Positions 721 to 26,671 of a stretch of DNA of 26,871 bases are shown here, in pieces. A program made the position numbers and the translations under genes. Numbering within the stretch: position 1 is the first letter of the stretch; each line of letters starts with the position of its first letter. The DNA is from Candidatus Absconditabacterales bacterium (GTDB lineage: Bacteria > Patescibacteriota > Gracilibacteria > Absconditabacterales > Absconditicoccaceae). A model generated the notes under the pieces. The model was not told the DNA's origin. It worked only from the letters and a program-made list of their open reading frames with translations, and made no database searches. The DNA is taken from positions 1-26,871 of the forward strand of contig JALOAF010000016.1 of NCBI GenBank assembly GCA_023228925.1, written 5' to 3'.

Positions 721-2028
721 ATGAAAAAATTAATAAAAAAATTGATATGATACGATAAATTATATAAATTTATAAAAACTAGTTTTGTTTATCAATGACG
801 AAAAAAAGTTAATTGAAAAATAGCAAATACTATCAATGGAAACCCGTCCAAAGATTTTTTTATTATTTGAGTAACAGGTACAAATTGAAAAACTACTACG
901 GCCAACATGTTGCATAAAATGCTAAATGAATTATTGGCTCCAACAGTAATGGTTAGTACCGCGTCTATAAAAATTTGAAATGAGACAACGATAAATGACA
1001 AAAAAATGACATCTTTGGATGTTTATCAGTTACAATCATTATTGGCAGATGCAAAAATGCAATGATGTAAAATCGCAATATTAGAAACATCTTCACATTG
1101 ACTGGATCAATATAGATTTGAGTGAATAAAATTTGATTATGCAATACTTACCAATATAACAAGAGATCACTTGGATTATCACAAGAATATGGAAGAATAT
1201 ATTAAGGCTAAAAAGAAATTATTTCAATATATTTTAGAGAATAAAAAAGAAATAAAGTATGCTACGTTTCCAGCTGATGATAAAATAGGTAGAGAGCGGT
1301 TTGATGAGATGGCTTTTGATAAAAAAATTAATTTTTCTGTACAAGGTTCTTCCATGTTAAAAGCTGAAAATGTTGTTGAAAAGGTAACAGAAACTTCTTT
1401 TGATATTAAATATTTATGAAACAATTATTCTACAACTTGTCAGATTTTGTGACAATATAATGTTTATAATTATTTGACAGCATTAAGTGTGTGAATTCAA
1501 ATATGATTGGATATAAATAAATGTATTAAATCCTTGTCTGAATTTAGCGGCGTAGATGGAAGAATGCAAAAAATTGTGCATAAAGATGTCACTTATTTTG
1601 TAGATTTTGCTCATTCTCCTGATGCTTTGGAAAAAACATTAAACTTTTTGAGTTCCTTGAAAGGAGAAAATAGATTGATATTAGTTTTTGGAGCACCAGG
1701 AAATAGAGATAAATTAAAAAGACCTGAAATGGGACAAATATGACGAAAATATTCAGATATTGTGATAGCTACTGACGATGATCCAGATACAGAAAATAGA
1801 TTAGCTATTATCAGACAATTGCTTCAAGACATTGATAGTAATAGTTCTAAAAATAAAAAACTATTTACAATCCCAGAAAGAGAATTTGCTATAAAATTTG
1901 CAACAAAAGTTGCTAAGCCTGGAGATATAGTTATGCTGGCTGGTAAATGACATGAACCAATTCAACGAACTAACTTTGGAACTAGAAAACGAAACGATAA
2001 AGAAGAGTTGTTGAAAAATTTACAATAA
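721..2028 (+). CDS. murE: UDP-N-acetylmuramyl-tripeptide synthetase (MurE-type Mur ligase)
   Basis: 435 residues with UGA read as Gly. MurE is a cytoplasmic ATP-dependent ligase that adds the third amino acid to UDP-MurNAc-L-Ala-D-Glu. Visible motifs: ATP-binding GVTGTNGKTT (about residues 50-59, second Gly encoded by TGA), ETSSHGLDQ, the Mur signature NITRDHLDYH, then GNRDKLKRPEMG and the C-terminal LAGKGHEPIQ (Gly by TGA). The usual N-terminal UDP-substrate domain of ~90 residues is reduced to about 45, so the protein is shorter than E. coli MurE (495). The loop that reads DNPR in meso-DAP enzymes is DDPD here (about 353-356), which argues against meso-DAP as substrate and for lysine or another residue (inference). 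The ATG at 721 was chosen as the first in frame; it has no Shine-Dalgarno. The dnaQ-like gene follows 25 bases later. Confidence 0.93.
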
Positions 2029-2053
2029 GTTTATATAAAAAAACAGATAAATA

Positions 2054-2641
2054 ATGCAAAACAAACATTATGTGGTTTTGGATATTGAAACAACATGACT
2101 TTCAAAATATAAACATCAAATTACTGAAATAGCAGCGATTAAATTTGATGGAAAAAATGTTTTAGATAAATTCCATACACTTGTAAATCCGCAAAGAAAT
2201 ATCCCTAGTATGATTACAAGACTTACTGGTATTACCAATGAAATGGTAAAAGACGCTCCAACTATATCAGAAATTTTGCCAGATTTTTTGAACTTTATCC
2301 AAGATAATATTATTGTTGCCCACAATGCTACTTTTGACTTATGATTTCTTTCTGAAAATATTTATTTTCATCAGTGATTTTGGCTAAAAAATGATGTTAT
2401 ATGTACGAGAAAATTAGCAAATAGACTACTTCCAGACCTAGATAAAAAAAATCTATGAAGTATTTGTGATTATATGTGATTGGTAAATAATTCTGCACAT
2501 AGAGCGATGTGAGATACAGAAGTAACTGTAAAGGTTTTCCAGAATTTCTTAAATTTGTTAAAAAATAATTGAATTGACGATAAATTGGAAATAATAAAAT
2601 TTCAAGATAAAAGCATAAGGGAATGTTTGTTTTTGGATTAA
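2054..2641 (+). CDS. dnaQ: DnaQ-like DEDDh 3'-5' exonuclease
   Basis: 195 residues. All three exonuclease motifs are present: ExoI VLDIETTG (near the N-terminus), ExoII HNATFDLGFL, and ExoIII HRAMGDTEVT, whose His and Asp complete the DEDDh two-metal active site. Such proteins proofread as the epsilon subunit of DNA polymerase III or act as free exonucleases. The length suits a stand-alone exonuclease domain with little C-terminal tail, so epsilon versus a general exonuclease cannot be settled here. It lies 25 bases after murE and is probably co-transcribed. A diverged copy of its last ~60 codons is found at 4681-4857. Several glycines, including those in the ExoI and ExoIII motifs, are TGA codons. 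Confidence 0.9.
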
Positions 2642-2660
2642 AGATTCTAATATATTTTTT

Positions 2661-2706
2661 TATAACAAAAACAATAATTTTTGTATTATGTTGTTATATT
2701 TTTTGA
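2661..2706 (+). terminator. Probable terminator after dnaQ
   Basis: TATAACA (2661-2667) can pair with TGTTATA (2692-2698), with an inner ACAAAAA / TTTTTGT pairing, and a T-rich run follows. A second AT-only dyad at 2743-2765, centred on TCTAAAAA and its complement, is followed by CTTTTTT and could act as a back-up. Confidence 0.4.
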
Positions 2707-2825
2707 AATGATTTTTTTTTCTTGTTTTAATTTAAAAAGATCTCTAAAAAAAATATTTTTTTAGACTTTTTTAATATGTTCGCTGAAAACTTGCTTTTGA
2801 ACTGCTAAAAAAAGTGGTCAAAAAT

Positions 2826-2852
2826 TTGACAGGTTTTTTTTTTGTGTATAAT
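2826..2852 (+). promoter_or_regulatory. Probable promoter of the gene at 2893
   Basis: Perfect -35 TTGACA (2826-2831) and perfect -10 TATAAT (2847-2852), but with only 15 bases between them, short of the ideal 17. It lies 40 bases before the ATG at 2893. Its presence supports 2893 as the true start of the frameshifted gene. Confidence 0.5.
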
Positions 2853-2892
2853 TAAATTGTCAAAAAAATTTTTATTCTTTAATTAAACAAAA

Positions 2893-4334
2893 ATGACACG
2901 ATTAGATTCTATAAAAAAAATGTACAAGAAAAAGTACAACAAGAGAAGGAGGCGCAACAACAAGGGAAGGAGGTACAAAATCAGTCTCAACAAGATTTAC
3001 TTTCACTTTCCAAAGAAGTAGAGAGTACTAACAATGAGGCATTCCTTAAAGAAATTAGCGCTCTTTTTGAAAAATTTGGAACGGGCCCTATGGATGAAAA
3101 GAAAAAGAAGGAATTCAATGAAGAATTGGACGATCTTCTTGAACAACATGGAGTTGGTCCTATTACAACAGGCCCCGTTATTTCAAATGTAGAGATGCTT
3201 GATTTAACAGATTTAAAAGTATTTGGACGATGAAAAATTCCTGCTATTGATAAACAAGACATTGTATCTGGTGTTAATGGTTTGTCAGATCCATATAAAA
3301 CTGAAATCTCTGATTTTATAAAAAAGAATGATGTAAAATGATTACAAGTTTATTTGAATGAGAAAATTAAAGATGGTTCAATTAATTCTCAAGGTTTGAA
3401 AGAAGCTTTAACAAAGAAGGGAATTTCTTTTTGGAATAATCAAATTCTTGAAGATGGAAAATTTGGTCCTCAAACATTAGAAACGTTAAAATTTTTTATA
3501 CAATTAAATCAAATAATAGAAAAACCGCAAACGGATAGGGATCTTATTAAAAAACCTATTAAAAAACCTATTGAAAAACCTATTGATAGTCCAGAAAAAG
3601 AAAAATGATGGACTAATTGGATAGCAGAAGAAATTTCAGGACAAATTACAGAGATAAAAAATAAAAAACCTAATAAAAATTGGTCAGATGAAAGAAATGT
3701 ATATTCAGATTATGCACAGAACAATTTTATTGTTGATTTGAAAAAAAATGTAGTCTGAATAGCAACACGATGAACAAAGGAGCGATCTCAATGTTGTGAG
3801 GAGAAAGTAGATACAAATAATAGATGTGAGCTTGATATAAAAACATGAAAGATGTATGCATTTGCAGGAAGTAATAAATATGAGTTACCTTTTAATATGT
3901 GACCATTAAAATTAGATAGAAATTGAAAACCAGACGGATTAAATAGCAAAAATAGAGAACGTATCAAGTATTTTGCTAGAATATGAAATTTAGTAAATAA
4001 AATTAAAAAGAATGCAGTATTTAATAATAAGTGAGCTTTAAGATATACTGGTTGAGGAATCCAAGTTAATAATTGAATAGTATTTGACACTGATCAAGTA
4101 TCAAACCAAGCATTGAATGAGTTAAACAATAAATACAGTCATATATCTGCGCTTTGAAAATTAGAGCGTGTTAAACTAGCATCTTTATTGACTGCTATGA
4201 AACTTGATTTGAATAAAATTTCTTGGGAACCTGATATAGTAAGTTGATATCGGCTTGTTCCAAATCCTTTGGATAAAGAGCATCAATGATATGTTAAGAG
4301 TTATGCTAAACATAAGTCAAGAATAGGTTCTTAA
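2893..4334 (+). CDS. Unrecognised protein, Gln/Lys-rich N-terminus; frameshift at A8 tract 2913-2920
   Basis: The ATG at 2893 reads MTRLDSIKK and then runs into a different frame. From 2919 a clean open frame of about 470 codons continues to TAA at 4332-4334 but has no start codon near its beginning; its first ATG is at 3090. The two join if the A8 tract at 2913-2920 slips by -1 (or had one more A), giving MTRLDSIKKNVQEKVQQEKE. Downstream come a Gln-rich segment, a stretch resembling a peptidoglycan-binding-1 repeat (DGKFGPQTLETLKFF), a Pro-Lys linker with repeated KKPI units, and a C-terminal domain I do not recognise. No signal peptide or membrane segment is seen. The cause may be an assembly error, mutation, or slippage; function is unknown. 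Confidence 0.65.
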
Positions 4335-4642: not shown

Positions 4643-4680
4643 ATGATTTTTTCTATTCTTAGCTAAAAATTGACCCTTTA

Positions 4681-5255: not shown

Positions 5256-8200
5256 ATGATTAGTTCAAAAGACTGTAAAGACTTACTACAAAAACAATTT
5301 CAAAAAGATTTTTCTCAAAAACAAAACATATCTCAATTGATGACAAAATCTCGATGAGAAAACAGAAATAATTGTTTTTCTTATTTTGGCAATATGTGAA
5401 ATATTCAATCTTACTTAGAAAATATACAAAATAATGAATATATGGTAAATGATGAAATTAAAGTTGTTGAAAGTGATCCAAATAAAGCAAAAACAACGGA
5501 AAAACAAACTCATGCTTCTGCAAAAGTAGAGGATGGTTTTTTTTCGTCTTTGGGTGGTGGGGCAAAAATGATTTGAATATTTTTGTTGTATTTATCTTTG
5601 TCAGCTATAGTAGTCTATATTTTTTCAAAATTAATGAAATATACGTTTAGACGATGATATGCTTTTTTGAATAACCATAGAATGGTTTATATGAAAGTGC
5701 TTGTTCCAAGATGAGACAGTAAAGTGGATCGTGAACAGGCTAAAGAATTGGCAAAAGATATGAAGGAAAAAATATGAAGAATGTCGCAAGTTTATTTGAA
5801 CTTTCATAAAATTTGAAGATTGAGTATGAAAGATAAGATAATGTATAAAATTTTTAGAAAACCAAGAATTATTTTGATGTATCATTATGAGTGATGAACT
5901 TTAAATTTTATTGTATGATGCTTACCTGAATATCAAAAAATTTTGGAATGAGCAATAGGAGCACAGTTTTCGGATAGTTCTCTGGAAGTGATAAAAAGAC
6001 CAAATATTTTCAAAAGGAAACACCATAAAGTGATGCCTTTGCAGTCAGAAAAAAATTCAATCTACACGATTAGACTATATAAAAGAATGACAGATGATCC
6101 AATCAACAACCTTATTGACTCAATGAATAATATTGCAAAATCAGATACAGCAACAGTGATAATGACAATAAAACCATTGTCTGATAGGTGGAATGAAAAA
6201 GCAAAAAAACAAGTAGATAGATTATATAAAAATCTTGAACTTAGACCAAATGGATTATTTCCTGCAATATGGTATGGAATAAAGTCTTTTTTTAAATTAC
6301 TATTTACTTGAGAAGCTCCTGCTGGTAAAAGAGAAAAGGATGTAGCAATGGTTCGTATGGTAAAAGCAAAAGAAGAAACAATAAATGATATGGCAGAAGA
6401 AATAGGAACTGTGGCATTTGAGTCTGGACTTATGTTGATTAGTTCATCAGATAATGAAGAAAAATTAAAAAATAATATACAAAGTTTAGTTGGTTCTTAT
6501 ACTGTGTATACAGACCAATATGGAAATGAATTGGAACAGTTGGAAAACAAGGCAGCTATATTATGATTTTTAGCAAGACCTTTGTGGAAGTTGGCTGCTA
6601 CTTACAACTTAACAAACTTATTTTACAACTCAAACACATTTACATTAAATGAGTTAACCTCTTTGTATCACTTTCCAGATTATACATACAATCGTTCAAA
6701 TATTATAGAATGGATGCAATATAAAGTTTTACCAGCCCCGTCCAATTTACCTTCATTTCGTTATTGAGAGGAGAGTGGATTTGTAATGAGTGGTATAGTT
6801 GCTGAGAAATATAAATGAGGAAATTTGTCTGAGATATTAAAAGAATACAAAGATCATCGAGCTGTTTGATCAAAAACAGTAATAGAAGAGAAATTGGTCC
6901 CTATTGAAAAATTTAAAGAAAGTGAATTGGAGTGAAAAGAAATAGAAGAAAAAGATGGAAAGCAGTTTGTAAAGACAGAAATAGAGAAAGATGTTTATTG
7001 ATATAAAATTTACAAAGATTGAGTTTTGCTATGAACAAATATCTACAGAAACACTTATTTCCCGGTATATATGAAAAGAAATGATAGAACAAGACATCAT
7101 TATTGTATTTGAAAATCAGGTACTGGTAAGTCAGTGTTTTTACAAACTTTAGCAAGACAAGATATCCGAAATTGAGATTGAGTTTGTGTAATAGATCCAC
7201 ATGGAGATTTGGTTGAGGATATATTAAAATATATTCCAAAAGAAAGAGCAAAAGATGTAATATTTTTTGATGCATGAGACGAAGAAAGACCGATGTGATT
7301 AAATTTATATGAGATAGATGATATTGATGAGGCAGATAGAGTAGTAAACGATGCTACAGAAATATTTTTGAAAATGTTTGGTCCTGAAATTTTTGGTCCT
7401 CGTATTCAAGAATATTTTAAATATGGTAGTTTGACTATTATGGAAGATTTTGAAGATAGACCAACAATATTGGATGTGGTTAGGCTTTATACAGATGAAT
7501 CCTATAGAGAATATAAAGTGTCTAAAGTAAAAAATGCAGTAGTTAGAAACTTTTGGGAAAAAACCTTTAATGCGATGTGAGATAGAGAAAAAGCAGAAAT
7601 TATTCCATACTTTAGTTCAAAATTTGTGTCATTTAATACAAATAGACTTATTAGAAACATAATTTGACAAACAAAATCAGCTTTTAGATTAAATGAAGTT
7701 ATGGATGGATGAAAAATTCTGCTGATAAATTTATCAAAAGGTAAAATATGAGATTTAAATGCTCAACTTTTGGGGATGATTCTTGTTTCTAAAATATATA
7801 CAGCAGCTATGGCTCGTGGAAAAATTCCAGAAAAAGATAGAAAGGACTTTTATTTATATGTGGATGAGTTTCAAAACTTTGTTTCTGGGACATTTGCAGA
7901 TATCTTATCAGAAGCTAGAAAATATAGATTATGTTTGATAATGGCTCATCAATATATAGCTCAATTGGAAGCATGACAATGATTGAATAAATCAGAATGA
8001 TGAAAATGAGATGTAAAAGCAGCAGTATTTGGTAACGTTGGAACAATGATGTCTTTTAAAGTCGGTGCGCCTGATGCAGAATTTTTGGAAAAAGAATATC
8101 AACCAGTTTTGTGAATGTGAGATATTACATGAATAGCAAACTATAAAGCTTATGTTAAATTGAATATTGATAATGCAACTACGCGTCCATTTAGTATGAA

Positions 8201-8396
8201 TTCTATATATACTTGAGACTACAAAAACAATAAAATTGTTCCAATATTAAAAGAATATTCTTCAAAGAAATACTGAAGAAAAAGAAAGTTTGTTGATGCG
8301 GAGATTTCTGCTAGGTTGGGGCTAAATTTGGAAGAGGTAGATAAAAAACAAGCAGAGTGATGAGAAATAGATATTCAAGAAATGAAAAGTAAATAA
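5256..8396 (+). CDS. VirD4/TraG-like (type IV secretion/conjugation) membrane ATPase
   Basis: 1046 residues, with dozens of glycines encoded by TGA. Order: a polar N-terminus of ~100 residues, a transmembrane segment at about 105-127, a region typical of large CPR membrane ATPases (VLVPRGDSKVDREQAKEL, then ...MSQVYLNFHKI), and a P-loop domain with Walker A GKSGTGKS at about 619-626. Then follow CVIDPHGDLVEDIL and IFFDAGDEERPMGLNLYE, and the Walker B/coupling-protein motif LYVDEFQNF (Asp-Glu at 870-871) followed by SEARKYRLCLIMAHQYIAQL. These are hallmarks of HerA/VirD4 hexameric DNA or protein pumps. No other type IV secretion gene lies in the window, so the substrate (DNA, protein, pilus) is open. 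The downstream neighbours converge on a shared terminator. The ATG at 5256 is the first in frame. Confidence 0.85.
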
Positions 8397-8465: not shown

Positions 8466-9284
8466 TTATTCTTGAAATATGGTGTTGGGACATTCTTGAA
8501 AAATACTCCATTCCCATATGCTTGGATCCATTTGCTTGATTTCCATACAACTATTGTAGTCTATATCTTGTCATTCCCAAAACTTTTCCCATCAGTTTTC
8601 TGTTTTTTCTATAGCTAAAATATATCCTCATCACTCAGATTCTGAATAAACGCTAAGTAAAACATATGGTCAAAAAATTGAAATTATATTATATTCTATA
8701 TCGTCTCCATTTCGGATGTCGCTAATGCCAGTTTTTTTTATGAAATCATCTACTTTTCATGTTGTATTATATTCAAAGAAATTGTCACCATTAGCATATT
8801 TTTGCATTTGGTCTACACAACCTTGAAATTTTGTGTTGAATGCTACAAACTCTGTAGTAAATAAATGCGAATACCCCATATAACTATCTATACAATCTTC
8901 TTTGATAATTTGACCTTCAATTCAATCTCCATAAAAAAAATAATCATCTCAATCTTTGATTAAGTTTACACTATAATTAACTTTTTCTTCTAGAGCTGAA
9001 CCATAAAACACAAGTACACCATCTTTTAACACATAATCCCAGAAAGGTTCCTCTCATTCAGCAATAAAAATAAAATTTGAATCATTTGAATCTTTTATGT
9101 TTTGAGCTTTTTGCCCCGCCCAATCCTCTCCACAGCTTAAAACAACACTGTATGTAAAGTCGTCAGCATAAAGCTCCCATTCATATATTTCTTCAATACT
9201 TGCATTGGTATTAATATTTATAAGACAGACAATTTCTCAACTAGAATATCATATCATTGGTTTCAGACCAGTCCCATCAGTCAT
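8466..9284 (-). CDS. EPFW-domain protein, C-terminal part of a lipoprotein (second frame)
   Basis: 272 residues from an ATG at 9284 that directly follows a TAG in the same frame. It overlaps the preceding lipoprotein frame (9241-9732) by 44 bases. It reads cleanly: TDGTGLKPMIGYSSGEI near the start, then AEGEEPFWDYVLKDGVLVF. The EPFW motif and flanking pattern recur in the first gene of this operon (12260-13042, GEEPFWSFIIKNDILTL) and resemble the EPFW segment seen in some secreted META/HslJ-like bacterial proteins. It has no signal peptide of its own, so it is best read as the C-terminal part of the lipoprotein starting at 9732, split by a frameshift in the overlap. Translational coupling of two proteins is the alternative. 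Confidence 0.65.
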
Positions 9285-9732
9285 CTAATGGTTTTGCCTG
9301 ATAATCTTTCTCTGTTAATGTATTTTGTTTTTGCTCTTCAATTACTGGTTCTTCATTATTTGATTTGTCATTATAGAAGTATAAATCATGTAATCATCAA
9401 CCAGTATATATGTTACAAATAAAATTCTGAGATTTATCTCAGGCTTTTGCATATCATTTTATTCAATAGTATGTTCATGAAAATTCTGCATCAGTAAAAG
9501 TATATTCCATAGATCATGAATTATCATAGAAATATTGAACTGTTGGATTTCGCGTTTTCTCAATATTATCAAATAATGCCTTATTTACATATTCCATGCA
9601 TTTATGTTCTAATACATCTATATCACTTTCATTTATACAATCATCTCAACAATTTTCTACTACTGTTTTATTACATCCTGTAAGTAATAATCAGGCTACT
9701 AATAAAGTAGTTAAAAGTCAGATTTTTTTCAT
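9241..9732 (-). CDS. Lipoprotein, N-terminal part (first frame)
   Basis: 163 residues ending at TAG 9241-9243. The N-terminus is a lipoprotein signal: MKK, a hydrophobic stretch (LLTTLLVAGLLL), then TGC, which places the lipid-modified Cys at about residue 18. The mature part is acidic with paired cysteines (ENCGDDC) and ends DDGWDWSETNDMIF. Its signal peptide closely resembles that of the next gene upstream (9755-10880), pointing to duplication. The frame is probably continued by 8466-9284 after a one-base shift somewhere in 9241-9284. The exported product would be anchored to the outer face of the cytoplasmic membrane. Confidence 0.65.
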
Positions 9733-9754: not shown

Positions 9755-10880
9755 TTATTTATGGATTCTTTGAAATTTTCTATATCAATTTACTGAATAT
9801 ATAATTTGATAATAATAATCTTTATCAGATACCACATAATACACATATTTTAAATCTTTATAAGTAGGATCAGGTTTTGTAAATTTTTCTACTTTTAATG
9901 TATCCATATCGACTGGGAATCTCCATATTCAATAATTATATTCATCTCAAATTCAGCTAGTAACGAGTAAATAATTTCAATCTTTGTAAAGAGGAGGATA
10001 ATCAACTAATGAATCTTCTACCACAAATAATTCACTTCAAATATAATTTGATGTTACTTCCTCAAATCATGTATTTTTATCATAGATATATTTTACTTCT
10101 TCTTTCTCCGTTAATACTTTAAAATCAGACTTTTTTGGAATTCTTTTTATAATTACATATTTATCATCATCCCATAGATAAATATAATCTTTATCACTTC
10201 ATATATAATGATGATATTGTGTTCATCAATTTAGAACTTTATATCTTCTATCTTGTTTTGCTAAAGTGAATGTTCATTTATCCACTGGAAATTTATAAGG
10301 GAATAGAATTATATATCAATTACCATACCCTAAGTATCAGTCAACAGCTTGTATTCAAATAGTTCCAAATTGTACAGATGATGGTAATTCTTGTTTACTA
10401 ACTGCATAATTCTCTAAGAAATCCAGGCTCAAATATAGATTATCTTTATCTTCTCATGGATTCATATATTTAGCAGTTCAATCTACATCAAAGCTTGGAT
10501 CATAAAACCATCTTTTATATGAATTTTTATCTCTTTCTCTTTCAAAAATATTAAGTGATTCTATATTCCAAGATTCATCATTTGTTTTTATTCAATTATA
10601 ATTTTTTAATATTTTTTTCTGTAAATCTGTTAGTTCACTATCTATAATTTCTATATCGTAATAATCATCTCTTTCTACAATAAAGAATTCATATTTCTCT
10701 TTACTCTTATCAGTCGTATTTTCTGTTTTTTCATCTTTCTTTGTGTCCATATCAGAATTTATAGAAAAACCTCATGTTAAAACAAAGTTCTCTTCAGGCA
10801 CTGTTTCTTGGTTATTATTACACCCTGCAAGTAATAAACTACCAATCAATAATGTAGTTAAAAGTCAGAATTTTTTCATA
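9755..10880 (-). CDS. Lipoprotein with DKNYY-like repeats; frameshift in the signal peptide
   Basis: About 374 residues. The ATG at 10880 starts MKKFGL. The rest of the signal (LTTLLIGSLLLAGC) and the whole mature protein lie in another frame, which has no start. The shift is at the T5 run after GAC (near 10860-10865): the paralogue at 9732 has T4 at the same place, so one T appears inserted. The mature part holds SDKDYIYLWDDDK and VSDKDYYYQIIY, with evenly spaced aromatic-rich segments resembling the DKNYY family of cell-surface proteins (inference). The open frame is otherwise undamaged over 370 codons, which favours a recent mutation, a sequencing error, or slippage-based switching over old decay. 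Confidence 0.65.
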
Positions 10881-11759: not shown

Positions 11760-12239
11760 TTAGTTTTTTTGTATTTCTCCACAAAGAACTTCAATATAAA
11801 AAGGTATGTCAAGATCTGTTCAGTATTCAATATAGCTGTCTTCATCAAACTCATCTTCATCAAACACATCCTCGTCTCATTCAAAATAAAGAGAACAGAA
11901 GATCTCTCATTTTTTATATTCCATCAATCCTGAATAGTCAGATCAGCCATCTCAAAAAATGAAATCCCATCAATCAAAGAAATCACTGATTTCTGTAAAA
12001 TCTGTAATGTTGTCTGCTCTTCGAGATTTTCATTTTAAGTTTGGTATATGCCAAGTAAATTCCATATCACTATCAGCCTCAAAATTTTCTAGATTAGAAA
12101 AAAGTCAGTCCATTTCATAGATAAGATTGTTCATTGTATATGACTCTATTTCTGTGTTGCAATTACAATTGTTGTTTGTACTACAAGCTCCTACAAGTAA
12201 AAATAGTGTTAGAAAACCAACTAATAAAGTTTTTTTCAT
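11760..12239 (-). CDS. Small acidic lipoprotein (intact)
   Basis: 159 residues. The signal peptide MKKTLLVGFLTLFLLVGAC has lipobox VGAC with Cys at about 19, followed by an Asn/Cys-rich stretch (STNNNCNCN). The mature part is strongly acidic, especially FEGDEDVFDEDEFDEDSY near the C-terminus, which could bind cations or interact with a basic partner (inference). The frame is uninterrupted and ends in TAA. I do not recognise a family. It lies between the frameshifted gene downstream and the EPFW lipoprotein upstream, 20 bases apart, and reads as operon member 2. Confidence 0.75.
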
Positions 12240-16207: not shown

Positions 16208-16996
16208 ATGTTACCATTTTTTGAAATTTTGTGATTAAAAATGTACATGACCTGAATATGAATTATTATCTTTTTGTTATCTTTTATTATAGTTTCCAAC
16301 TACCTTTGTAACAAACGACATCAAAATTTTTACAAGATATTTTATTGGTTGCCAATAGCTATAATTATTAGCTATTTGCTGTGATCTTATTCTCACTTTT
16401 TTTTGAATTATTGATTGATTCCAAATAGTTTAGAACAAATAAAAATATTGCTTAGTCCATATTGATATCACTTCCATTTTACCTGACTAATAATAGGTTT
16501 TGTTATCTCTTTGTTTATATTTTTTGCTAAGATAAAAAGACAGGAAAACAAAAGAATTTGGATTGATATAATATTTTTTTCACTTATTTTATCTATAATT
16601 CCACTTGGAATATTTCTTGTGTTTGGAGATAATTTTATATGACAAGCTTCTACATCTTGGATAGCTATCAAACCTTTGACCACACAAACAGAATTAAATA
16701 AATTTGGATCTGTTTATCCCGTAGGCTTATTCCTATCGTTTTGGGCTATTTTTAGTGTAATAATCACTTTAATAAGTAAGAGAAGAAAAAAAAGATTTGG
16801 ACAAGGGTTGTTATGATTCGTGTATTTTATTTTAGGACTAAATATTATCTTCTTTTTTCAACAATATCCTAAATACTGAGTGATATCTATGTGATGAATT
16901 ACATTTGATATAAAAACTTATATTTCATTTTTTACAATAATGTTGTGTTTACATTTGTATTATAAACGAAATCAAAAGTGAGATATTGTTGTTTAA
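16208..16996 (+). CDS. Polytopic membrane protein, divergent Lgt-like (prolipoprotein diacylglyceryl transferase)
   Basis: 262 residues with about seven predicted membrane helices. Order and motifs resemble Lgt: a YGYHFHFTGLIIG block (His at 88 and 90) like Lgt's conserved His loop; KRQENKRIWIDIIF in place of the RaR...D segment; GDNFIGQAS (about 140-148) where Lgt has GNFINGE; YPVGLFLSFW like the hPsqLYe segment; and a C-terminal GGITFDIKTYISFF resembling G-t-x-x-Q-x-x-S. Lgt attaches diacylglycerol to the lipobox Cys of prelipoproteins, which would fit the five lipoproteins encoded nearby. Key residues differ, notably the Arg before GNF, so activity is uncertain and a related non-Lgt membrane protein is possible. 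Confidence 0.55.
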
Positions 16997-17019: not shown

Positions 17020-18555
17020 ATGAAATTTTTTTTTGTAGCAGAAGATAGTTTATATAAAATTTTTAAAACTTTAGAAAAAGTTCCAAAGTGAAAGACTGTA
17101 GAAATATCTATAGATTCACATCATTCTTTGTTTGATAACGAATGGCGATGAAAGCAGATAAAAGAAATTTTGGATAAAAGAAATATTAATGCTATTTTTG
17201 TTACAAAAAAAGAAACTTCTAGAAAGTTTTTTGAGAAAATTGGATTAAAGACTAAGCATACAGAAAAAAACAAAATTATGAAATTTTTGAGAATAATTTA
17301 TTTGTTCTTTTTTGATATTAAAAAATTCCACTTAAATACCTTCCAAAATAGAAAAAGTTATACCTTTCTTTTGGTAATTTGATTTGAAGCATTGTTTGTG
17401 CTTTGAGTTATGTATTTAATTTATTCTTTAATCATCCCTTGAGTAAAAGTAGAAATTAATCCATCTCAACAAATAGAAACTATAATATATAATTTTCGTT
17501 ATTATTCTGCTGAAGATATAGAATATCCTCGTTATTCTAGATTTCTTAGTATTCCATTTTATACATGATCTATAGATTATAGGTATGATATGTCTATGAA
17601 CACTAGCAATGTAAAGTTTTTACAAAATCCATCTATTTGAGAAATAAAAATTTTTAATAAAACAAATAAAGAGTTTGCTTTAGTCCCAAATACTAGATTT
17701 ATAACAGATGACGGAAGGCTTTTTCAAACAACAAATCGAATTGAAATACCTGCTTGATATGATGGGATACCTTGAGAACTCGTGATTAGAGTAAAAGCTA
17801 TGGAAAAAGATGACAATGATATTTTGATGTGAGATAGATGAAATATAACAAAATGAACAACATTGTATATAAAAAATTTAAAACAGAGTTTGTTTTTAAA
17901 AGAAATTTATGCCGTAGTCTTAGAAGATTTTACATGATGATCTTTAACTACAGATTGAGAAGTGACTCAAAAAGATATCGACCTATTGTCTGAAAAAATG
18001 GTTTCTTATATTACACAACAAAAGAAAAATATTGTAACACAAAACTTTAATATAAAAGATTCTTTGTTGTTAGCTTTCAATGATACAATTACGACTCTTA
18101 TAAAAAATATTGATGTTCCACATGAATTATGAGAAAAAAATTCACTAATGAACGGACACATAGATGTAAGTTTTAATTTTTTTTATATAAGGTGGGCAGA
18201 CTTAATTCAAGCTTTTTCTGATTATATCAATCAAAGACCCTCCAATAAAACTCAATTGGTTAGCATAAACAAAAACTCTTTGGTGTTTTTTGAAGAAGAT
18301 GGTCTGGTTGAAAAAGATGGTACTTTTATTATACCAACAAAAATAGAAATAATTCAAGGATATGATTTCAAAAAAGATATAGTTTGAATAGTAGAAGATA
18401 TCAAGTCTCATATTGTTTGATGAAATAAAGAAACAGCTAGAAATTATGTTTTATGATTTCCAGAGGTTTCTAGTGTGAAAATAAAAATAGTTCCATCTTG
18501 GTATGGAAGTATCCCAAAACTAAAATCTAGAATAAAGGTAAATATTAAAAATTAG
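17020..18555 (+). CDS. Baseplate-J-like membrane protein
   Basis: 511 residues. A cytoplasmic N-terminal part of ~110 residues precedes one or two membrane helices (about 115-145). A long extracytoplasmic part holds GEIKIFNKTNKEFALVPNTRF, then DDGRLFQTTNRIEIPAG, GELVIRVKA, a GNITKGTTLYI stretch and LEDFTGGS. This pattern (N-T-x-x-x-x-L-V-x-x-T-R-F, I-P-A-G, G-N-I, T-G-G) resembles the baseplate J/gp47-like proteins annotated in many CPR genomes. Those are membrane-anchored and unlinked to phage tails, and their role is unknown. The gene starts 23 bases after the Lgt-like gene and ends in TAG, overlapping the stop of the convergent AMMECR1-like gene by four bases. Confidence 0.6.
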
Positions 18556-18983
18556 ATTGCAAATCTATCGGTTTTAAACTTTACTACTTGAACATTGTTT
18601 CATAGATCATTTTTTTCTTTTATAATTTTCAATCAATCCTGTATATTATTTACTCATTTTGTATTTGGTAACAACACTCCTGACTTGGTCCCATCACTCA
18701 ATAAAATTCCAAAATCTTTTGGAGATATGGTTTGTATTTCTTGTGGAGATTTTATTTCTGTTGTTTCTAAAACTATATCTGCTATTATAGTTTTGATATT
18801 TGTGTGTCTACTTATTAAGCCCTGATATAGTAAATTTATAAGCTCTTCCAAGGCTTTGTCAGTATAAACGACTCAATTTGACATCAATAAAGCTCATTGT
18901 TCGTCGAATATAGAAAAAAAGACTCACCTGATATCGTTCTTTTTATATTTTTGAAAGATAGATTTTTTAATTGTTTCAAACAT
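18552..18983 (-). CDS. AMMECR1-domain-like protein lacking the LRGCIG motif
   Basis: 143 residues. Middle and C-terminal parts follow the AMMECR1 pattern: RGVFFSIFDEQGAL, then IIADIVLETTEIKSPQEIQTISPKDFGILLSDG, TKSGVLLPNTKGV, and KEKNDLGNNVQVVKFKTDRF. The universally conserved LRGCIG segment expected after the first strand reads LLMSNG, so any redox or catalytic use of that Cys is lost. The family's function is not firmly known; it is often found with radical-SAM and MEMO proteins, neither of which is in this window. The stop codon overlaps that of the plus-strand gene (18552-18555). ATG 18983 is the first in frame. Confidence 0.6.
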
Positions 18984-19369: not shown

Positions 19370-20500
19370 ATGTCTAAACTAAAATTTAAAATACTTAAAC
19401 AAAGATGAAATGCAAGAGTTTGAGAAATAGAACTAAATTGAATTAAACTCACCACCCCTGTTTTTATGCCTGTTGGTACAAAAGCTACTATAAAAGGCTT
19501 GTTTTTGGATGTTTTGAAAAATGAGAAAATCCTGGGAAACTTGGATCCAATAAAGTTAATTCTTGCAAATACTTTTCATCTATATCTTCGTCCAGGAGAC
19601 GAATTGATAAAAAAAGCATGATGATTACACAAATTTGAAAATTGGGAAGATGGGCTTATTCTCACAGATAGTGGGGGTTTTCAAGTTTTTAGTCTTGGTT
19701 TGGGGAAGGACGAAAATCGCGACAAATGAGCTCATAAAGTAGATATAAAATTAGTAGAAGATGGTGTACATTTTAGATCTCCATATGATGGATCAAAACA
19801 TTTTTTTAGTCCAGAAAAGGTTGTGGATATTCAATGTAACCTATGATCTGATATCATGATGGTTCTAGATGTTTGTTCCCCATGAAATTCTGATAAAGAG
19901 ACTCTTTATAGTCAAATGCAACAAACTCATCGTTGGGCAAAAAGAGCATATGATCATTTTATGAAAAAGTATGATAAAGTAAAGTGAGTGCTTTTCCCAA
20001 TAGTTCAATGATGAACAGATTTAGAAATGAGAAAAGAGTCAGCAGAATACTTATCACAATTTGCGACTGATGGGATAGCTATATGATGAGTGAGTGTTTG
20101 AGAATCAAAAGAAAAAGTGAGAGAAGTTGTGGAATTCACAACTCCTTTATTGCCAAACGATAAGCCAAGATACTTAATGTGAGTAGGCACACCAGAAGAT
20201 TTATTACATGCTATAGAACATTGAGTAGATATGTTTGACTGTGTTTTGGCAACTAGACTTGGAAGGCATGGAGTAGCATTTTCTGGCAAATGAAATATAA
20301 ATTTAAATAATGCAAAATTTAAAGAAGATTTTAATCCTCTAGATGATACAGCTGAATGATTGAAAAATTATAGCAAATCTTATATACATCATCTTTTAAA
20401 AGAAAAAGAAATGTTGTGATGAATCATTTTGTCTCTCCATAATATTTTGTATTTACACAAAATTTTAGAAAACTGGAAAAGAAATTTTTTGGAAGATTAG
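19370..20500 (+). CDS. tgt: tRNA-guanine(34) transglycosylase, zinc cysteines missing
   Basis: 376 residues, the normal bacterial length. It exchanges G34 of His/Asn/Asp/Tyr tRNAs for a queuosine precursor. Seen: RGNARVGEIELNG and TPVFMPVGT near the start, [23 protein letters not shown] (Asp at 100, the general acid/base position), [36 protein letters not shown] (Asp at 290, the nucleophile position), and [11 protein letters not shown]. The C-x-C-x2-C zinc triad that should precede NYS is replaced by Asp/Ala/Leu in [11 protein letters not shown] (about 322-332), although the later His (LHN) is kept. The usual TRNARNG is TRLGRHG. The catalytic core is intact, so it is probably active with an altered C-terminal subdomain. 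It ends in TAG, five bases from the convergent DUF4012 gene. Confidence 0.92.
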
Positions 20501-20505
20501 GGGGT

Positions 20506-22110
20506 TTATTCAACAAGAAAATTGATTTCTATAGTTTTTGTGGTATGATTTGTATTTATCAACATCTGATAATATACTCCATTGGCAAAAGGTGTAACAA
20601 ATGTTCTATATTCTTGTTGTTGTCCAGATATGTCTAAAATTTGAAAGCTTTGTGGAAAATAAACACTTGCCTTAGTTTCCATCCATTTTTCATAAATATT
20701 ATCATCATATTTTGCTGGTCTAAGAGCCAAAATAGATTCCTCTCTACTAGTCATTTCTATTTGATATTTTTTTTCTAAATCTCTAATAAAGTCTATATAG
20801 TAATTTGGCACATTTAAAGTATAGTAAATTTTCATTGTATATTTTCATGGCATCAAATCTTGGATATTTACTATATCATTATCAGAATCTATCAAAATTT
20901 TATTTCATTGATCTAAAATTTGAATGTTTTTTTCTACAAATCCATCGACCTTATTGTAAGAGGTGTTTGTGTCCCAAGCATAAATAAATCGAGAATTATA
21001 TTCCAACTTTAATTTATTGTTTTTTAATACATTTTGTAAATCATCAGATACATTTGATAAATATATGCTTATAAAGTTTTTGTTTATCACATCATCAAAA
21101 TTGTTTATTATATTTTTAAATATATTTATTTTATTTTTACTGAAATAATCTTTTACTCATTTGATATATTCTTCCTTTTTGTTTCAACGATATTCTCATC
21201 TAATGATATCTATATTGGCATTTAGAAACTGTCGTTCTCGAGATAATTCTGTAAAAGAAGGTATTAAAAACTCAATTAAATCTGATCTTACAAAAATAAC
21301 TCATTTGATGTATTTGTGTAATAATTTTTCATATAATCATGCTTCCATAGTTTGTTGAACTTTTGACATAGAATATGTTTCGTTAAACATTTTTTCATAA
21401 AGTCGTTTTAGGTTGCTTCCATCTATATCAGAGAATCAGAATTTATTTCCAGCAATAAATCATATTTTACGATCTGGCAAAAAAGAGCTTGTTCGTTCTG
21501 GTGCTATCAAACGGGTTTGATATGCTATATAGTCTGGATAATATGAATCAACTATTTCTAAATTTTCTAGTTTTCAATCCTTTAGTGTTATAAATGCAAA
21601 AGAACCAAAAAATCAGCCATTTGGTCTTTTTTCATTTGTGTTTTGTAATATTACTAAATAATTAAACTCTCATTCTTTTCATAATAATCTTGATATTTCT
21701 TCCCAATTTCACTGAATAGATCATAAAAGCTCTATTAGTTTTCCATATTTTTTGAAGCCTAAATTTTTCAAGTAATTTTCATTTTTTTTAATATATTCTA
21801 GAGTTTCCAAAATTTTGTCTTCCTTTGTTAGTAATATATTTTCTCAATCAACATAAGCTTTGGCAACTTCATCAATATTCAATAACATTTTTGAAATATT
21901 TTCATCTATATTCCAAAAATAAAAAGCTATCTGCTGTAAATCTTCTTTGAAAATATCCATTTTGTCTTTATTGAAAACTATGTTTGTAATATTAGAATAA
22001 AAAGCAAAAATAGCAAAACTTAAAACTAAAAGAATCACAAAAATTATATTACTAAATTTTAGATAATATTTCCAATTTTTTTCTATTTTTCTTGAAATTC
22101 CAAATTCCAT
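20506..22110 (-). CDS. DUF4012-family membrane-anchored protein
   Basis: 534 residues. A short basic N-terminus and one transmembrane helix (about 22-45) are followed by an extracytoplasmic helical region and then the family signature LVILQNTNEKRPNGGFFGS, FAFITLKDGKLENLEIVDSY and IAPERTSSF, with YAWDTNTSYNKVDGF in the C-terminal half. DUF4012 proteins occur widely in Gram-positive and CPR bacteria; the function is not established, and a role in cell-surface or polysaccharide processes is often guessed. It converges on tgt with only five bases between stops and no terminator visible. ATG 22110 is the first in frame. Divergent from the prepilin peptidase gene. Confidence 0.85.
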
Positions 22111-22274: not shown

Positions 22275-23102
22275 ATGCAAATAGAAATATTTTTTATACT
22301 CTTTGCAATATGATGTTTTTTTGGCTCATTTTGAGGAGTTTTGATTTCTAGAAAACGGGATAAAAATTGAATTAAATCTATTTTTCTTGGTCGTTCAAAA
22401 TGTGATAATTGCAAAAAAAAACTTTCATTTCTAGAATTAATACCAATATTTAACTTTTTGTTTCAAAAAGGAAAATGTAATAAATGTTGAAAAAAAATAT
22501 CTAATTTTTATCGAATAGTAGAGCTTTTGTCTGCTTTGGCCTTTGTTTTAACTTATTTGTTTTTCCCTTACAATTGAATGTTGGAACTTGTATTTTGGAT
22601 TATAATAAATTGGGCTTTCCTTTTTTTGATAATATTTGATATCCAAAAACATGAATTACATTTACCAATATGGATTTTTGTAACAATTGTTTCTTTAATC
22701 TTTGCATTATTAAAATTAAATATTTCAACAATATTTTGTTTTTCACTCGGATTTGTTTTTACTTTTATATCAATATATTTGTTTGCTAAATATTATGTAA
22801 AACTTAGATTTCGTAAAAATGAAGAGTGATTTGGACAAGGAGATGTGTATTTGTCATTGACAATAGGAATACTTTTTGGACTAATACTTTATTACAATAG
22901 TATAGCTTTTTCTATTATAAATTTACTTGATTTTATTATTATTTATGTTATTTTTAGTTCGTTAATTTGACTAATTTACTCTATTTTCAATATAGTTATA
23001 AAAACAAAACAAAAACAAATAATACCATTCTTACCGGCCATGATCTTTGCATTTTACTGACTTTTGTTTTTTGCTGATTTTTTTATTAAATTTTTGAAAT
23101 AA
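22275..23102 (+). CDS. pilD: Prepilin peptidase (type IV leader peptidase, GspO/PilD family)
   Basis: 275 residues, polytopic. An N-terminal FFGSFGGVLISR block is followed by the cytoplasmic domain with two zinc-type CxxC pairs (Cys43/46 in CDNC, Cys68/71 in CNKCG). The aspartyl protease residues follow: FDIQKHELHLP (Asp122) and GFGQGDVYLSL (Asp190), matching the conserved G-x-G-D motif. It cleaves and N-methylates type IV prepilins at the inner membrane. One Gly of the EEGFGQGD motif is a TGA codon. Its stop codon abuts the ATG of the next gene (TAA then ATG with no gap), so the two are surely co-transcribed. Confidence 0.93.
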
Positions 23103-24053
23103 ATGACAAGATTTCTTATTAAATATAAATATAAAATTAGGACATATATATTTTTCTTTTTAGTTTGTATATCATATTTTTTTACTGTTTTTTATTTGTT
23201 TTGAAATCATGATATATTTGCTTCTATTATAGCAATATTTTTTCTGTATGTTTTCTCACATTTTTTGGCTATAGATTATAGAAACTTAAAAATAAAATAT
23301 GTGATATTTTTTGTATTGTTTCTATTTATTATTACTTTAATATTTTTTATATTTTTCTCTCGAGAGATAAATATTTGGTTAATATTATCTTTATTAATAT
23401 TCGATATTTCTTTGTTGATTCTTTTTTACTCATTACAGTCTGTCGGATTTAGTAGTATTTCTTATTTTCTGAGAGGTGGCTATGTTTTTACTTTATTTAT
23501 AACAATTGCATATAGTCTTACATTTATATGAATGTTTAAATATTTTCCACTTACTTGTGAAGGATTAAAAGACGCATCAAATAAACTTATAGAATTTGTA
23601 GAGAAACCAATTATAATACCGGTTAAAAAAATACAAAATTCAATTTCAGAAGCTAAATATAAACAAGATTTAGATGAAATAAATACTCAAGTAGGGGAGG
23701 TGCTTTTATGATTTCAATGAGTGCAAATTTCTACAGAACCAGACACTGTTTTGGCTCCTGTAGTTTGAAAAATAAATGACTGGAAAGAAGAAACTATAGA
23801 TCAGATAATAGAGGATCAAAAAACATATTCTCAAGATGTTTGTAATATGTTGTTAAATTCAATAAATGAAAAATATATGTTAAAAGAGCTTGGGCTTTCG
23901 GTCGTAATGTTAATATATTTTTTGTTGTTTGGTTTTATTAGATTGGCAATTTTTATTATGAGTTTCATTTGATTTTTGATATTCAAATTATTATACTGGT
24001 TGTGAGTTTATAAAATAAAAAAAATAAAAACAGAAATTTTTGAAATAAAATAA
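23103..24053 (+). CDS. Unrecognised polytopic membrane protein downstream of pilD
   Basis: 316 residues. Six or so hydrophobic helices lie in the first ~150 residues (IFFFLVCISYFF, IFASIIAIFFLYVFSHFLAI, YVIFFVLFLFIITLIFFIFF and others). A polar segment of about 130 residues follows (EFVEKPIIIPVKKIQNSISEAKYKQDL ... STEPDTVLAPVVGKIND), then one or two more helices and a Lys-rich tail. No family recognised. It begins at the base after the pilD stop, so a link to type IV pilus assembly is suggested by position only. The low-complexity Phe/Ile content is partly a result of base composition. Confidence 0.75.
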
Positions 24054-24058
24054 AAAAA

Positions 24059-24064: not shown

Positions 24065-24072
24065 ATTATATT

Positions 24073-24318
24073 ATGAAAAAAATTATTTATTTTTTACTTC
24101 TTCCCTTAGAACTTTTGGGTAGAGTGATTGATTATTTTTTTGATTATCTATGTTTGGGATTTACCATATTTACAACATGGGTTGTCTATAAATCACTTAA
24201 ATCAGGAATTCTATTTAAAGAACCAATACAATATATGCCACTTTTTATATTGTTTGTCTTCGTTGTTATAGCATTGTTCTTGATATACCTATGGTTTAAA
24301 AAACATTTAAAAGATTAA
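24073..24318 (+). CDS. Small two-helix membrane protein
   Basis: 81 residues and no TGA codon. Two hydrophobic segments (about 5-40 with LGRVIDYF in the middle, and 55-75 PLFILFVFVVIALFLIYLWF), with a basic C-terminal tail KKHLKD. No family recognised. It sits 19 bases after the previous membrane gene, has the only strong Shine-Dalgarno sequence in the window, and is closed by a terminator, so it is the last gene of the pilD operon and may be made in larger amounts than its neighbours (inference). Confidence 0.75.
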   Translation: MKKIIYFLLLPLELLGRVIDYFFDYLCLGFTIFTTWVVYKSLKSGILFKEPIQYMPLFILFVFVVIALFLIYLWFKKHLKD

Positions 24319-24321
24319 ATC

Positions 24322-24353
24322 AAGATGGCTGTTGTATTACAACCATCTTTTTT
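24322..24353 (+). terminator. Terminator of the pilD operon
   Basis: AAGATG ... GTTGT pairs with ACAAC ... CATCTT around an ATT loop, with a three-base bulge, and is followed by T6. A typical intrinsic terminator. Confidence 0.7.
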
Positions 24354-24398
24354 CTTCTTGAGAATTGTTAAAAAAAAACTATATTTAACTGTTTTCTG

Positions 24399-24426
24399 TT
24401 AACAATAATTTAAATTTAATTATAAT
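24399..24426 (+). promoter_or_regulatory. Probable promoter of the U32 peptidase gene (near-leaderless)
   Basis: TTAACA (24399-24404) and perfect TATAAT (24421-24426) are spaced 16 bases apart. Transcription would begin within a few bases of the ATG at 24436, giving a leaderless or nearly leaderless mRNA. A small dyad TTAAC/GTTAA overlaps the -35. Confidence 0.45.
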
Positions 24427-24435
24427 TTATAAAAC

Positions 24436-25722
24436 ATGAAAAAACCTACAATAGTTGCTCCTGGATGATCTTATGAAAAGGCTATCATAGCTAGTAAATA
24501 TTGAGCAGAAGAAGTCTATATTTGAGTGCCTTTTACCTCTTTGAGAATGAGACAAAACAAAGTAAGAGATTTTGATATACTGAAAAAAACAATTCAAGCA
24601 ATACACGATAATTGATCAAAAGCACTACTTACCATGAATATCTTTCCTAGAAATACTGATATTAAGGTGTTTGAATCAGTAGTAGAAAAAATTTCAGATA
24701 CAAATCCTGATGCAATTATTTTTTCTGATCCTGGAACTTTTAATGTTCTTAGAAAACACTTTCCAAATGTACCTTTACATTTAAGTACTCAGACTTCTAC
24801 ACTAAATTACGAATCAATCAAATTCCGAAGAGATTTAGGTGTAAAAAGAATAATTCTTGCTAGAGAACTTCATATAGAAGAAATTAAAGAAATTAGAAAA
24901 AAAGTTCCAGATATTGAATTAGAGGTTTTTGTTCATGGAGCTATGTGTATGAGTTATTCTGGGAGATGTTTGCTTTGAGATTATATGGCTGGTAGACAAG
25001 CAAATAAGTGAGAATGTAATCATGCTTGTAGATTTAAATATAAAGTTCGATTGGAAGAGGAAAGAAGACCTGGCAAATTTTTTCAATTGGACTGAGACGA
25101 GGATGGTAGTTATATTTTATCATCCAGAGATCTATGTACTATAGATAAGTTACAAGAGATTTTGCCTTATGTAGATGCTATAAAAATAGAATGAAGGAGT
25201 AAATCAGAGTTTTATGTGTGAGCGGTTGTAAAAGCTTACAAAGAAGTCAGAGATGCTATTTTAGAATGAAGAGAACCGGATTTACAGATTAAAGAATTAG
25301 TTGAAAAAATTCCTCATAGAAAATATCGAGATTGATTTTTATTTAACTGATTAAAAGATTTTCCTGAAACAGAAAGTATGGAAAACACCTTAGATAATGA
25401 GACAGCAAATACTAAAGATGTTTATCAAGGTTCTACAACATTGACTAGTGGAGGACCAGAATTTTGTAGGAATTATTTTGGTGTTTTCAAAGATAAATTT
25501 ATAGAAAAAAATGGAAAAAGATATTTTGAATTTAATCCAAAGGAGGTGATAAAGAGATGACAAAGATTAAACTTTATTAGTTCTAATGATATTTGAGAAT
25601 TAGAGATTGTTGATATTATCAAAGAATGATGACAAGAATTAGAAAAGGCAACTTGTAATACACCTAAAGTCTTTGTTTTAACAAATAAGGAACTTAATGG
25701 TTGGGAAATTTTATATGAATAA
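24436..25722 (+). CDS. U32-family peptidase (TrhP/YegQ-type tRNA hydroxylation protein)
   Basis: 428 residues. Starts KKPTIVAPGGSYEKA, typical of the family (E-L-L-A-P-A-G-x-x-E equivalent), with the barrel strand AEEVYIGV and the signature EVFVHGAMCMSYSGRCLLGDYMAGR followed by NKGECNHACRF (about 162-200). Four Cys there are the likely iron-sulfur or structural ligands. Its size and C-terminal extension resemble TrhP (YegQ), which takes part in 5-hydroxyuridine formation at tRNA position 34; RlhA-type 23S rRNA hydroxylation is the alternative. Gly181 in the signature is a TGA codon. A perfect match to the 16S anti-Shine-Dalgarno (AAAGGAGGTGAT) occurs inside the gene at about 25539-25550. Converges with folD. 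Confidence 0.88.
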
Positions 25723-25753
25723 AACCATTCTTGGATAAGAATAACTTATATAA

Positions 25754-26671
25754 TTATATTTTTTGAATATCAAAAATATTTTCAAACAAACAAGCAACAG
25801 TTAAAGGTCAAATTCCTCAAGGGACAGGTGTAATATATTTTATTTTATCTTTTACAGATTCAAAATCTACATCTCATACTGGTTTTCAATTTTTGTGACC
25901 ATATCATACATCTATGACTATTTGACTTTGATCGTTATGAACAAATTCATCATTTATTAAATGAATTACTCATGTGCAAGAAACTATAATATCAGACATT
26001 TTGCAAAGCTCTTTTGTTTTTTCTATTGGAGTACTACTATTTGTAGAAAATACAGTTGCTCATTGTTTGATAAACTCCAAAACAAGAGGCTTTCACACTA
26101 AATTGCTCTGTCATATTACTGTAATTATTTTTCATCTTATATTGTACAAATCATATTCTTTCAATATTTTTACTACAGCCTTTGGTGTTGCTGGAACAAA
26201 ATCTATTAAATCTATTGATGATAATCAACTTAATACACCTCCCATTCCATCGATATCTTTGTTTGGAGATATTGTGGATAAAATTTTAGATTTATATTGT
26301 TTGAATTGTTCTGGTAAAGGCAACTGAACAATTATGCCAAGACAGTCTTTATCGTGATTTAAATAATTGATTAGGTCTATAACTTTTGAAATATTGTCAT
26401 ATTCTTGTTTCATATACAATTGAACATCATAATCATCTTTTGTGTTTTCTGGTAAATTATCTCATTTTTTGTATTGTCCAAAAATATGTGCTTTTATTCA
26501 TATTTTTTCTCAATATTTTTGTTTTAATCAAACATATATTTTTGAAGATTGATCATTTCATAAGTATATAATTCAAATATATTTATCATTATTTGGAAAA
26601 AATTTTTTTACTTTTGTTGTCAAGTCTTCTTGTAATTTTTTTGATATTTTTTGTCATTCCAACAAGATCAT
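25754..26671 (-). CDS. folD: Bifunctional methylenetetrahydrofolate dehydrogenase/cyclohydrolase
   Basis: 305 residues, slightly longer than the usual ~285. FolD interconverts 5,10-methylene-THF and 10-formyl-THF using NAD(P). Motifs: YVGLKQKYGEKIGIK with the catalytic Lys at about 50, [12 protein letters not shown] (about 112-122), PNKDIDGM (about 136-142), [13 protein letters not shown], the nucleotide-binding ITVIGQSNLVGKPL, and the C-terminal ITPVPGGIGPLTVACL. All catalytic positions look intact. The start was taken as ATG 26671; the N-terminus MILLEGQKISKKL fits the family. It ends 31 bases from the U32 gene stop on the other strand. Confidence 0.93.

Follow-up and report, generated by a model that had tools for sequence, protein, structure and literature searches.

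A probable three-codon change of genetic code, with UGA as glycine and CGA and CGG as tryptophan, in a 26.9-kb stretch of Absconditabacteria DNA

Contig JALOAF010000016.1, considered here over its whole 26.9 kb ("the window"; 27% GC), yields under translation table 11 no open reading frame (ORF) longer than 208 aa, and that one lies antisense to an RNase Y gene. Called instead with table 25, in which UGA is glycine, as the sequence-only reading of this DNA had proposed, it resolves into 21 long ORFs between positions 721 and 26671; these form the gene set used throughout, shorter antisense or overlapping ORFs being excluded. We take the window to be chromosomal DNA from an Absconditabacteria (SR1) cell in which UGA is read as glycine, CGA and CGG are both read as tryptophan, and only UAA and UAG serve as stops, a reading to which we would give a probability of about 0.95. 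This three-codon code is presumably the one that NCBI lists as table 37.

Six of the genes were compared with homologs. On the plus strand, 721..2028 encodes a MurE-like Mur ligase (435 aa; 15 TGA, 4 CGA and 1 CGG; TIGR01085 murE over its cut-off) and 5256..8396 a TraD/TrwB/HerA-like P-loop ATPase (1046 aa; 41 TGA, 4 CGA; PF10412, PF01935 and PF12696 over cut-off), a protein with a match in 76 of 78 genomes of a draw from the phylum. Further along the same strand lie the genes for RNase Y (14629..16131; 500 aa; 13 TGA, no CGA or CGG; TIGR03319 over cut-off), the tRNA guanine34 transglycosylase Tgt (19370..20500; 376 aa; 20 TGA, no CGA or CGG; TIGR00430 over cut-off) and a peptidase U32/TrhP-like protein (24436..25722; 428 aa; 16 TGA, 3 CGA; PF01136). 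FolD is encoded on the minus strand at 25754..26671 (305 aa; 18 TGA; PF00763, PF02882). No tRNA or other Rfam family was found in the window.

The 21 coding sequences contain 283 in-frame TGA codons and not one TAA or TAG in 7,454 codons (the count beginning one codon past the ATG of a TMEM43-family gene at 13251), while TAA and TAG together occur 562 and 435 times in the two alternative frames of the same strand (7,433 codons each), so that their absence in frame is not a matter of chance. It had been claimed that the genes are open only if TGA is sense and that they all end in TAA or TAG, and this is borne out: TGA occurs in 20 of the 21, the exception being an 81-aa ORF at 24073..24318, and the terminal codons are 18 TAA and 3 TAG. 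If UGA is glycine, it is also the commonest glycine codon of the window, with 283 of 494 (57%) against 211 for GGN.

What TGA stands for can be read from the homologs. With TGA, CGA and CGG masked, the six proteins were aligned to 159 standard-code loci in other genomes within the phylum, the closest relative described below being excluded; each locus gave a listed match without an in-frame stop, except one ATPase locus (L102, with two TAG), which was retained, and the U32 set was counted without three duplicate loci (L087-L089, which repeat genes of L079-L081). There were 105 TGA columns represented by 8 or more homologs, and 70 of these had a majority residue, which was glycine in 58 and tryptophan in none; the control, GGN codons, gave glycine in 54 of 59. 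In columns conserved to at least 80%, glycine accounts for 48 of 52. Such glycine columns are spread over MurE (residues 50, 56, 135, 244 and 410), the ATPase (9 columns), RNase Y (7, with 29 homologs, and one further column of alanine), Tgt (11, and one of histidine) and FolD (10). A column likelihood places glycine first for TGA, some 199 log units over the next residue, and the same procedure returns the standard meaning for 53 of the 55 sense codons that had 5 or more columns (6 codons had fewer), the exceptions being CTG and CGA. Telling against glycine are the 12 of 70 majority columns that carry another residue (alanine in 5, glutamate in 2, and His, Gln, Ser, Asn and Lys in one each) and, at 80% conservation, the 4 of 52 that are Asn, Ala, His and Ser.

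The sequence-only reading had placed TGA on invariant glycines of named motifs, and this stands in part. TGA does occupy a glycine in every one of them: GTNGKT and GKGHE of MurE, the first G of GKSGTGKS in the ATPase, the first and last G of GKLIGREGRN in RNase Y, LLGDY of the U32 protein, and the first G of EEGFGQGD in a prepilin peptidase (PilD; A24), which is encoded at 22275..23102 on the plus strand (275 aa; 8 TGA, 1 CGA, 1 CGG; PF06750, PF01478). The last two are not invariant glycines, however. The U32 position, residue 181, is serine in 14 of 14 standard-code homologs, and in the prepilin peptidase the glycines of GxGD, which we take to be the conserved motif of the family, are written GGN, the TGA lying just before them.

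A scan of genome contigs with RNase Y led to two relatives, one in the Patescibacteria metagenome-assembled genome (MAG) UR.bin133 and one in a candidate division SR1 MAG. UR.bin133 is the closest relative found, with 80-89% DNA identity to the window over aligned pieces. The assignment of the window to the Absconditabacteria agrees with these two genomes and with 120 listed database relatives of MurE, whose few named sources include Absconditabacteria, SR1 and Gracilibacteria. Codon by codon, the window could be compared with UR.bin133 in 13 of the 21 genes (5,196 codon pairs), the other 8 having no usable match in the stretches compared. Opposite 195 aligned TGA codons of the window the relative has TGA or GGN at 188, and TGA itself at 164.

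Evidence on tRNAs and release factors comes from UR.bin133 and its order. Among 37 tRNA matches in UR.bin133 is a tRNA with anticodon UCA that carries G1:C72, C2:G71, G3:C70 and U73, which PMC8629427 takes as glycine identity elements. All four are present in 30 of the 30 tRNA(UCA) loci read in the order, UR.bin133 included, and a DNA query with this tRNA matched in 45 of 49 genomes of the order, in two of them over the 3' end only. One class-1 release-factor gene (PF00472) was found in UR.bin133; it passes the models for release factor 1 (RF1) and falls below the cut-off for release factor 2 (RF2; 249.6 against 370 bits), and no RF2 was detected there. No RF2 passed the cut-off in any of the 49 genomes of the order, for which completeness figures are lacking; in a draw from the phylum 33 of 39 genomes have one over the cut-off, UR.bin133 being among the six below. 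The expectation that a tRNA-Gly(UCA) would accompany loss of RF2 thus fits what is seen in the relative and in its order, and we infer the same set of tRNA and release-factor genes for the genome of the window itself. Conserved columns, codon exchange with the relative, a glycine-type tRNA(UCA) and the failure to detect RF2 in UR.bin133 together give strong support to UGA as a glycine codon.

The earlier proposal that the code is table 25 holds for UGA and fails for two further codons. The window has 30 CGA and 3 CGG (together, CGR), which table 25 reads as arginine. Opposite 24 of these, UR.bin133 has TGG 12 times, CGR 11 times and TGA once, and in no case one of the other arginine codons, AGA or AGG (AGR) and CGT or CGC (CGY). 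All three CGA codons of the U32 gene and both CGR codons of the prepilin peptidase gene pair with TGG. The five CGA of a gene for a DUF4012 protein (20506..22110, minus strand; 534 aa; 16 TGA, 5 CGA; PF13196) pair with CGG, CGA, TGG, CGG and TGA. In the reverse sense, 29 window TGG codons pair with TGG 20 times, CGR 8 times and a leucine codon once, while 161 window AGR or CGY codons pair with arginine codons 136 times, lysine codons 22 times, others 3 times and CGR never.

The same exchange recurs in a wider comparison between genomes. Between UR.bin133 and a second genome, G120, with overlapping ORFs removed and 167 of 229 ORF pairs (53,337 codon pairs) retained, 234 CGR codons of UR.bin133 face TGG at 105 and CGR at 70, that is tryptophan codons in 175 of 234, and arginine codons in none; the 220 CGR codons of G120 face TGG at 64, CGR at 70 and arginine codons at 5. 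From G080 to G120, tryptophan codons stand opposite 102 of 168 CGR, with 1 arginine, and in the other direction opposite 107 of 184, with 4; from UR.bin133 to G080 they stand opposite 56 of 96, with 3, and in the other direction opposite 44 of 64, with 2.

In UR.bin133, tRNA(UCG) and tRNA(CCG) have A1:U72 and G73 and lack A20, like its own tRNA-Trp(CCA), while its arginine tRNAs (UCU, CCU and GCG) by eye have A20 and A73. Of 30 tRNA(UCG) loci from the order, all lack an A after the GG of the D loop; for tRNA(CCG) these elements refer to UR.bin133 only. Among eight other tRNAs of UR.bin133 compared, tRNA(CCG) and tRNA(UCG) are closest to tRNA-Trp(CCA), at 66% and 62%, and this similarity is too slight for us to claim that they descend from it. 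Taken with the pairing of window CGR with TGG and never with arginine, these tRNAs make it very likely that CGA and CGG are tryptophan codons.

For CGR the homolog columns are weak evidence by themselves. Residue 131 of the U32 protein, a CGA, is tryptophan in 10 of 14 standard-code homologs; of two CGR positions in MurE, residue 424 is tryptophan in 6 of 16 homologs and residue 193 tyrosine or phenylalanine in 18 of 28. Reading CGR as tryptophan raises the Pfam scores of the U32 domain (269.5 to 274.6 bits) and Mur_ligase_M (162.1 to 165.0), and among NCBIfam models the best MurE and TrhP scores rise while some weaker ones fall. Several observations weigh on the other side. By columns the case for CGA is weak (posterior 0.64 for tryptophan, 8 columns), and for CGA and CGG jointly tyrosine, at 0.38, comes ahead of tryptophan, at 0.25, the 9 columns being too few to separate tryptophan from other aromatic residues. 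Read as tryptophan, CGR lowers the scores of Mur_ligase_C (95.1 to 94.1 bits) and DUF4012 (37.6 to 37.3). By automatic register G73 is found in 23 of the 30 tRNA(UCG) loci, 7 reading otherwise, and the genome pairs include the few CGR-arginine pairings given above (5 of 220, 1 of 168, 4 of 184, 3 of 96 and 2 of 64). Residue 638 of the ATPase, a CGA, is most often arginine in homologs (6 of 29), yet it is TGG in UR.bin133.

That last residue also counts in favor of the sequence-only reading, table 25 as it stands, with UGA alone reassigned and CGA and CGG still arginine. A further point is that arginine stands in 66 of the 120 listed database relatives of MurE at residue 27 and in 89 of 120 at residue 193, but this may simply mirror the table with which those proteins were translated. 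Against it are the 24 CGR codons of the window without one AGR or CGY partner, the 161 AGR or CGY codons without one CGR partner, the 175 of 234 tryptophan pairings and no arginine between UR.bin133 and G120, and the tryptophan-type elements of tRNA(UCG) and tRNA(CCG); we leave it a slim chance. Since CGA and CGG behave as tryptophan codons, table 25 is incomplete here and misreads 33 codons of the window.

About equally improbable is that UGG has become ambiguous, the tRNA-Gly(UCA) also reading it by wobble so that it means both tryptophan and glycine and leaves CGR as the unambiguous tryptophan codon. An initial count of 36 TGG-TGA exchanges against 4 of TGG with GGN spoke for this, but many of the sites lay, by eye, in antisense or overlapping ORFs; with overlaps removed the figures fell to 8 against 4, and two further genome pairs gave 1 against 2 and 0 against 3. 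In none of the six directions compared, moreover, are the tryptophan sites of CGR more conserved than those of TGG (at p < 0.05): in five there is no significant difference and in one CGR lies at the less conserved sites (134 of 220 against 262 of 372, p = 0.019). On these figures we rejected an ambiguous UGG.

A Mycoplasma-type code (table 4), with UGA as tryptophan, is far less probable still. Of the 1,800 cells that the listed database relatives of MurE present at TGA columns, 652 do hold tryptophan, but these most likely mirror the translation used; none of the 70 majority TGA columns is tryptophan in standard-code homologs, which refutes such a code by columns, and the tRNA(UCA) of UR.bin133 is of glycine type. 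In the same database set (P0002-P0121), 95 of the 120 proteins have at least 4 tryptophans at the 28 columns where the window has glycine. They were probably translated with UGA as tryptophan, so that the database entries for these bacteria appear to include many wrong proteins. That the TGA codons reflect stop-codon suppression, pseudogenes or assembly error is practically out of the question, no point in its favor having been found, with TGA in 20 of 21 genes as the top glycine codon, no TAA or TAG among them, and 164 of 195 aligned TGA codons also TGA in an independent genome.

Under the three-codon code, then, a dedicated tRNA-Gly with anticodon UCA would read UGA and, RF2 having been lost, RF1 alone would end translation at UAA and UAG. 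Tryptophan would be brought to CGA and CGG by tRNAs with anticodons UCG and CCG that bear tryptophan identity elements, while arginine would be read from AGA and AGG by tRNA(UCU) and tRNA(CCU), and from CGU and CGC by tRNA(GCG). This is the most likely mechanism, the charging of these tRNAs and the insertion of the two amino acids being predicted from sequence.

Campbell and Rinke, both in 2013, are cited in PMC8629427 for the reading of UGA as glycine in SR1 and Gracilibacteria, NCBI table 25. The window resembles that code in UGA as glycine and, through its relatives, in a tRNA-Gly(UCA) and no detected RF2; it differs in that table 25 keeps CGA and CGG as arginine. For UGA, an experimental validation of the change to glycine in a BD1-5/SN-2 bacterium is reported in the abstract of PMC4032931. 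All three codons are covered by Shulgina and Eddy (2021; PMC8629427), who for Absconditabacteria give UGA as glycine and CGA and CGG as tryptophan, and the tryptophan reading of CGG and CGA is repeated for Absconditabacterales in PMC13092985. With the account in PMC8629427 the window agrees in lineage, low GC, the meaning of UGA and of CGA and CGG, AGA as the main arginine codon and the rarity of CGG, and UR.bin133 agrees in having a tRNA(GCG), tryptophan-type tRNA(UCG) and tRNA(CCG), and a tRNA(UCA) with the glycine elements. In the window CGA has a share of 30 in 7,454 codons (40 per 10,000, whole genes), compared with fewer than 37 per 10,000 Pfam-aligned codons there, figures that are not strictly comparable. 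The same source reports CGG as tryptophan in Anaerococcus and in uncultivated Bacilli of the order RFN20; there too an arginine codon of the CGN box has passed to tryptophan with a tRNA(CCG) as reader, but the change concerns CGG alone and lies in Firmicutes. The three-codon code is thus already known, and it is the sequence that is new. Proteins from such contigs come out wrong in different ways under each other table: as fragments with table 11, with tryptophan for glycine under table 4, and with arginine for tryptophan under table 25. Codon exchange between close relatives, for its part, is a clean comparative demonstration of a sense-codon change, independent of profile columns.

On balance we favor, with some reserve, the view that the change of CGA and CGG to tryptophan is well advanced in this lineage of Absconditabacteria rather than early. 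CGR supplies 33 of 91 tryptophan codons in the window (36%) and 234 of 555 in the aligned genes of UR.bin133 (42%), it exchanges freely with UGG, and the sites it occupies are about as conserved as those of UGG. The relevant passage of PMC8629427 likens such changes to early stages and treats a single assembly from Absconditabacteria as further advanced. If the change is indeed advanced, the lineage would be a strong place for a direct proteomic test of sense-codon reassignment.

The remaining genes of the window are as follows. On the plus strand, 2054..2641 encodes a DnaQ/RNase T-type 3'-5' exonuclease (195 aa; 7 TGA; PF00929) and 3090..4334 a protein without a family (414 aa; 15 TGA, 3 CGA, 1 CGG; no Pfam match at E 0.001). 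Also on the plus strand, a TMEM43-family membrane protein is encoded at 13251..14471 (406 aa; 14 TGA, 2 CGA; PF07787, 257 bits). An integral membrane protein at 16208..16996 (plus strand; 262 aa; 13 TGA, 2 CGA) has no NCBIfam or Pfam match; the name Lgt, a guess, was dropped, no family in either collection backing it. It is followed by a protein without a Pfam match at 17020..18555 (plus strand; 511 aa; 20 TGA, 2 CGA), which is 85% identical in UR.bin133, and, on the minus strand at 18552..18983, by a protein with weak similarity to AMMECR1, below the Pfam cut-off (143 aa; 6 TGA). Two membrane proteins without a Pfam match lie on the plus strand beyond the prepilin peptidase, one without a family at 23103..24053 (316 aa; 7 TGA, 1 CGA) and the small one at 24073..24318 (81 aa; no TGA).

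Five small proteins, none with a Pfam match, are encoded in a row on the minus strand between 8466 and 13042. The first, at 8466..9284 (272 aa; 11 TGA, 1 CGA), is an ORF under table 25 that by eye has no signal of its own and overlaps the next by 44 bases. The other four have lipoprotein-like N-termini by eye and are putative lipoproteins: 9241..9732 (163 aa; 11 TGA, 1 CGA), with an N-terminal lipobox of the LLTGC type; 9755..10879 (374 aa; 19 TGA), with LLLAGC; 11760..12239 (159 aa; 8 TGA, 1 CGA); and 12260..13042 (260 aa; 5 TGA). None of the five has a usable match in the UR.bin133 stretches compared, and together they possibly form a lineage-specific lipoprotein cluster. The counterparts of 721-8396, with MurE and the ATPase, lie in UR.bin133 on one contig (C55) and those of 14541-26671, from RNase Y to FolD, on another (C4), so that the lipoprotein and TMEM43 region between the two parts may point to a rearrangement or to an island.

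A last observation concerns Tgt. In UR.bin133 the gene carries, between residues 116 and 117, an in-frame insert of 135 aa (L041:1096-1500) that contains a domain of the endonuclease-like family DUF559 (PF04480, 103.7 bits), and the frame of the gene is open throughout over 556 aa, while the window gene is uninterrupted at the same site. No splicing domain was matched in the insert, and a search of the window, 438 kb of UR.bin133 DNA, 400 kb from G080 and contig C1 of G120 turned up no second copy. At its ends C and G runs are plentiful around TATCA, and the whole has the look of a mobile insert that codes for protein.

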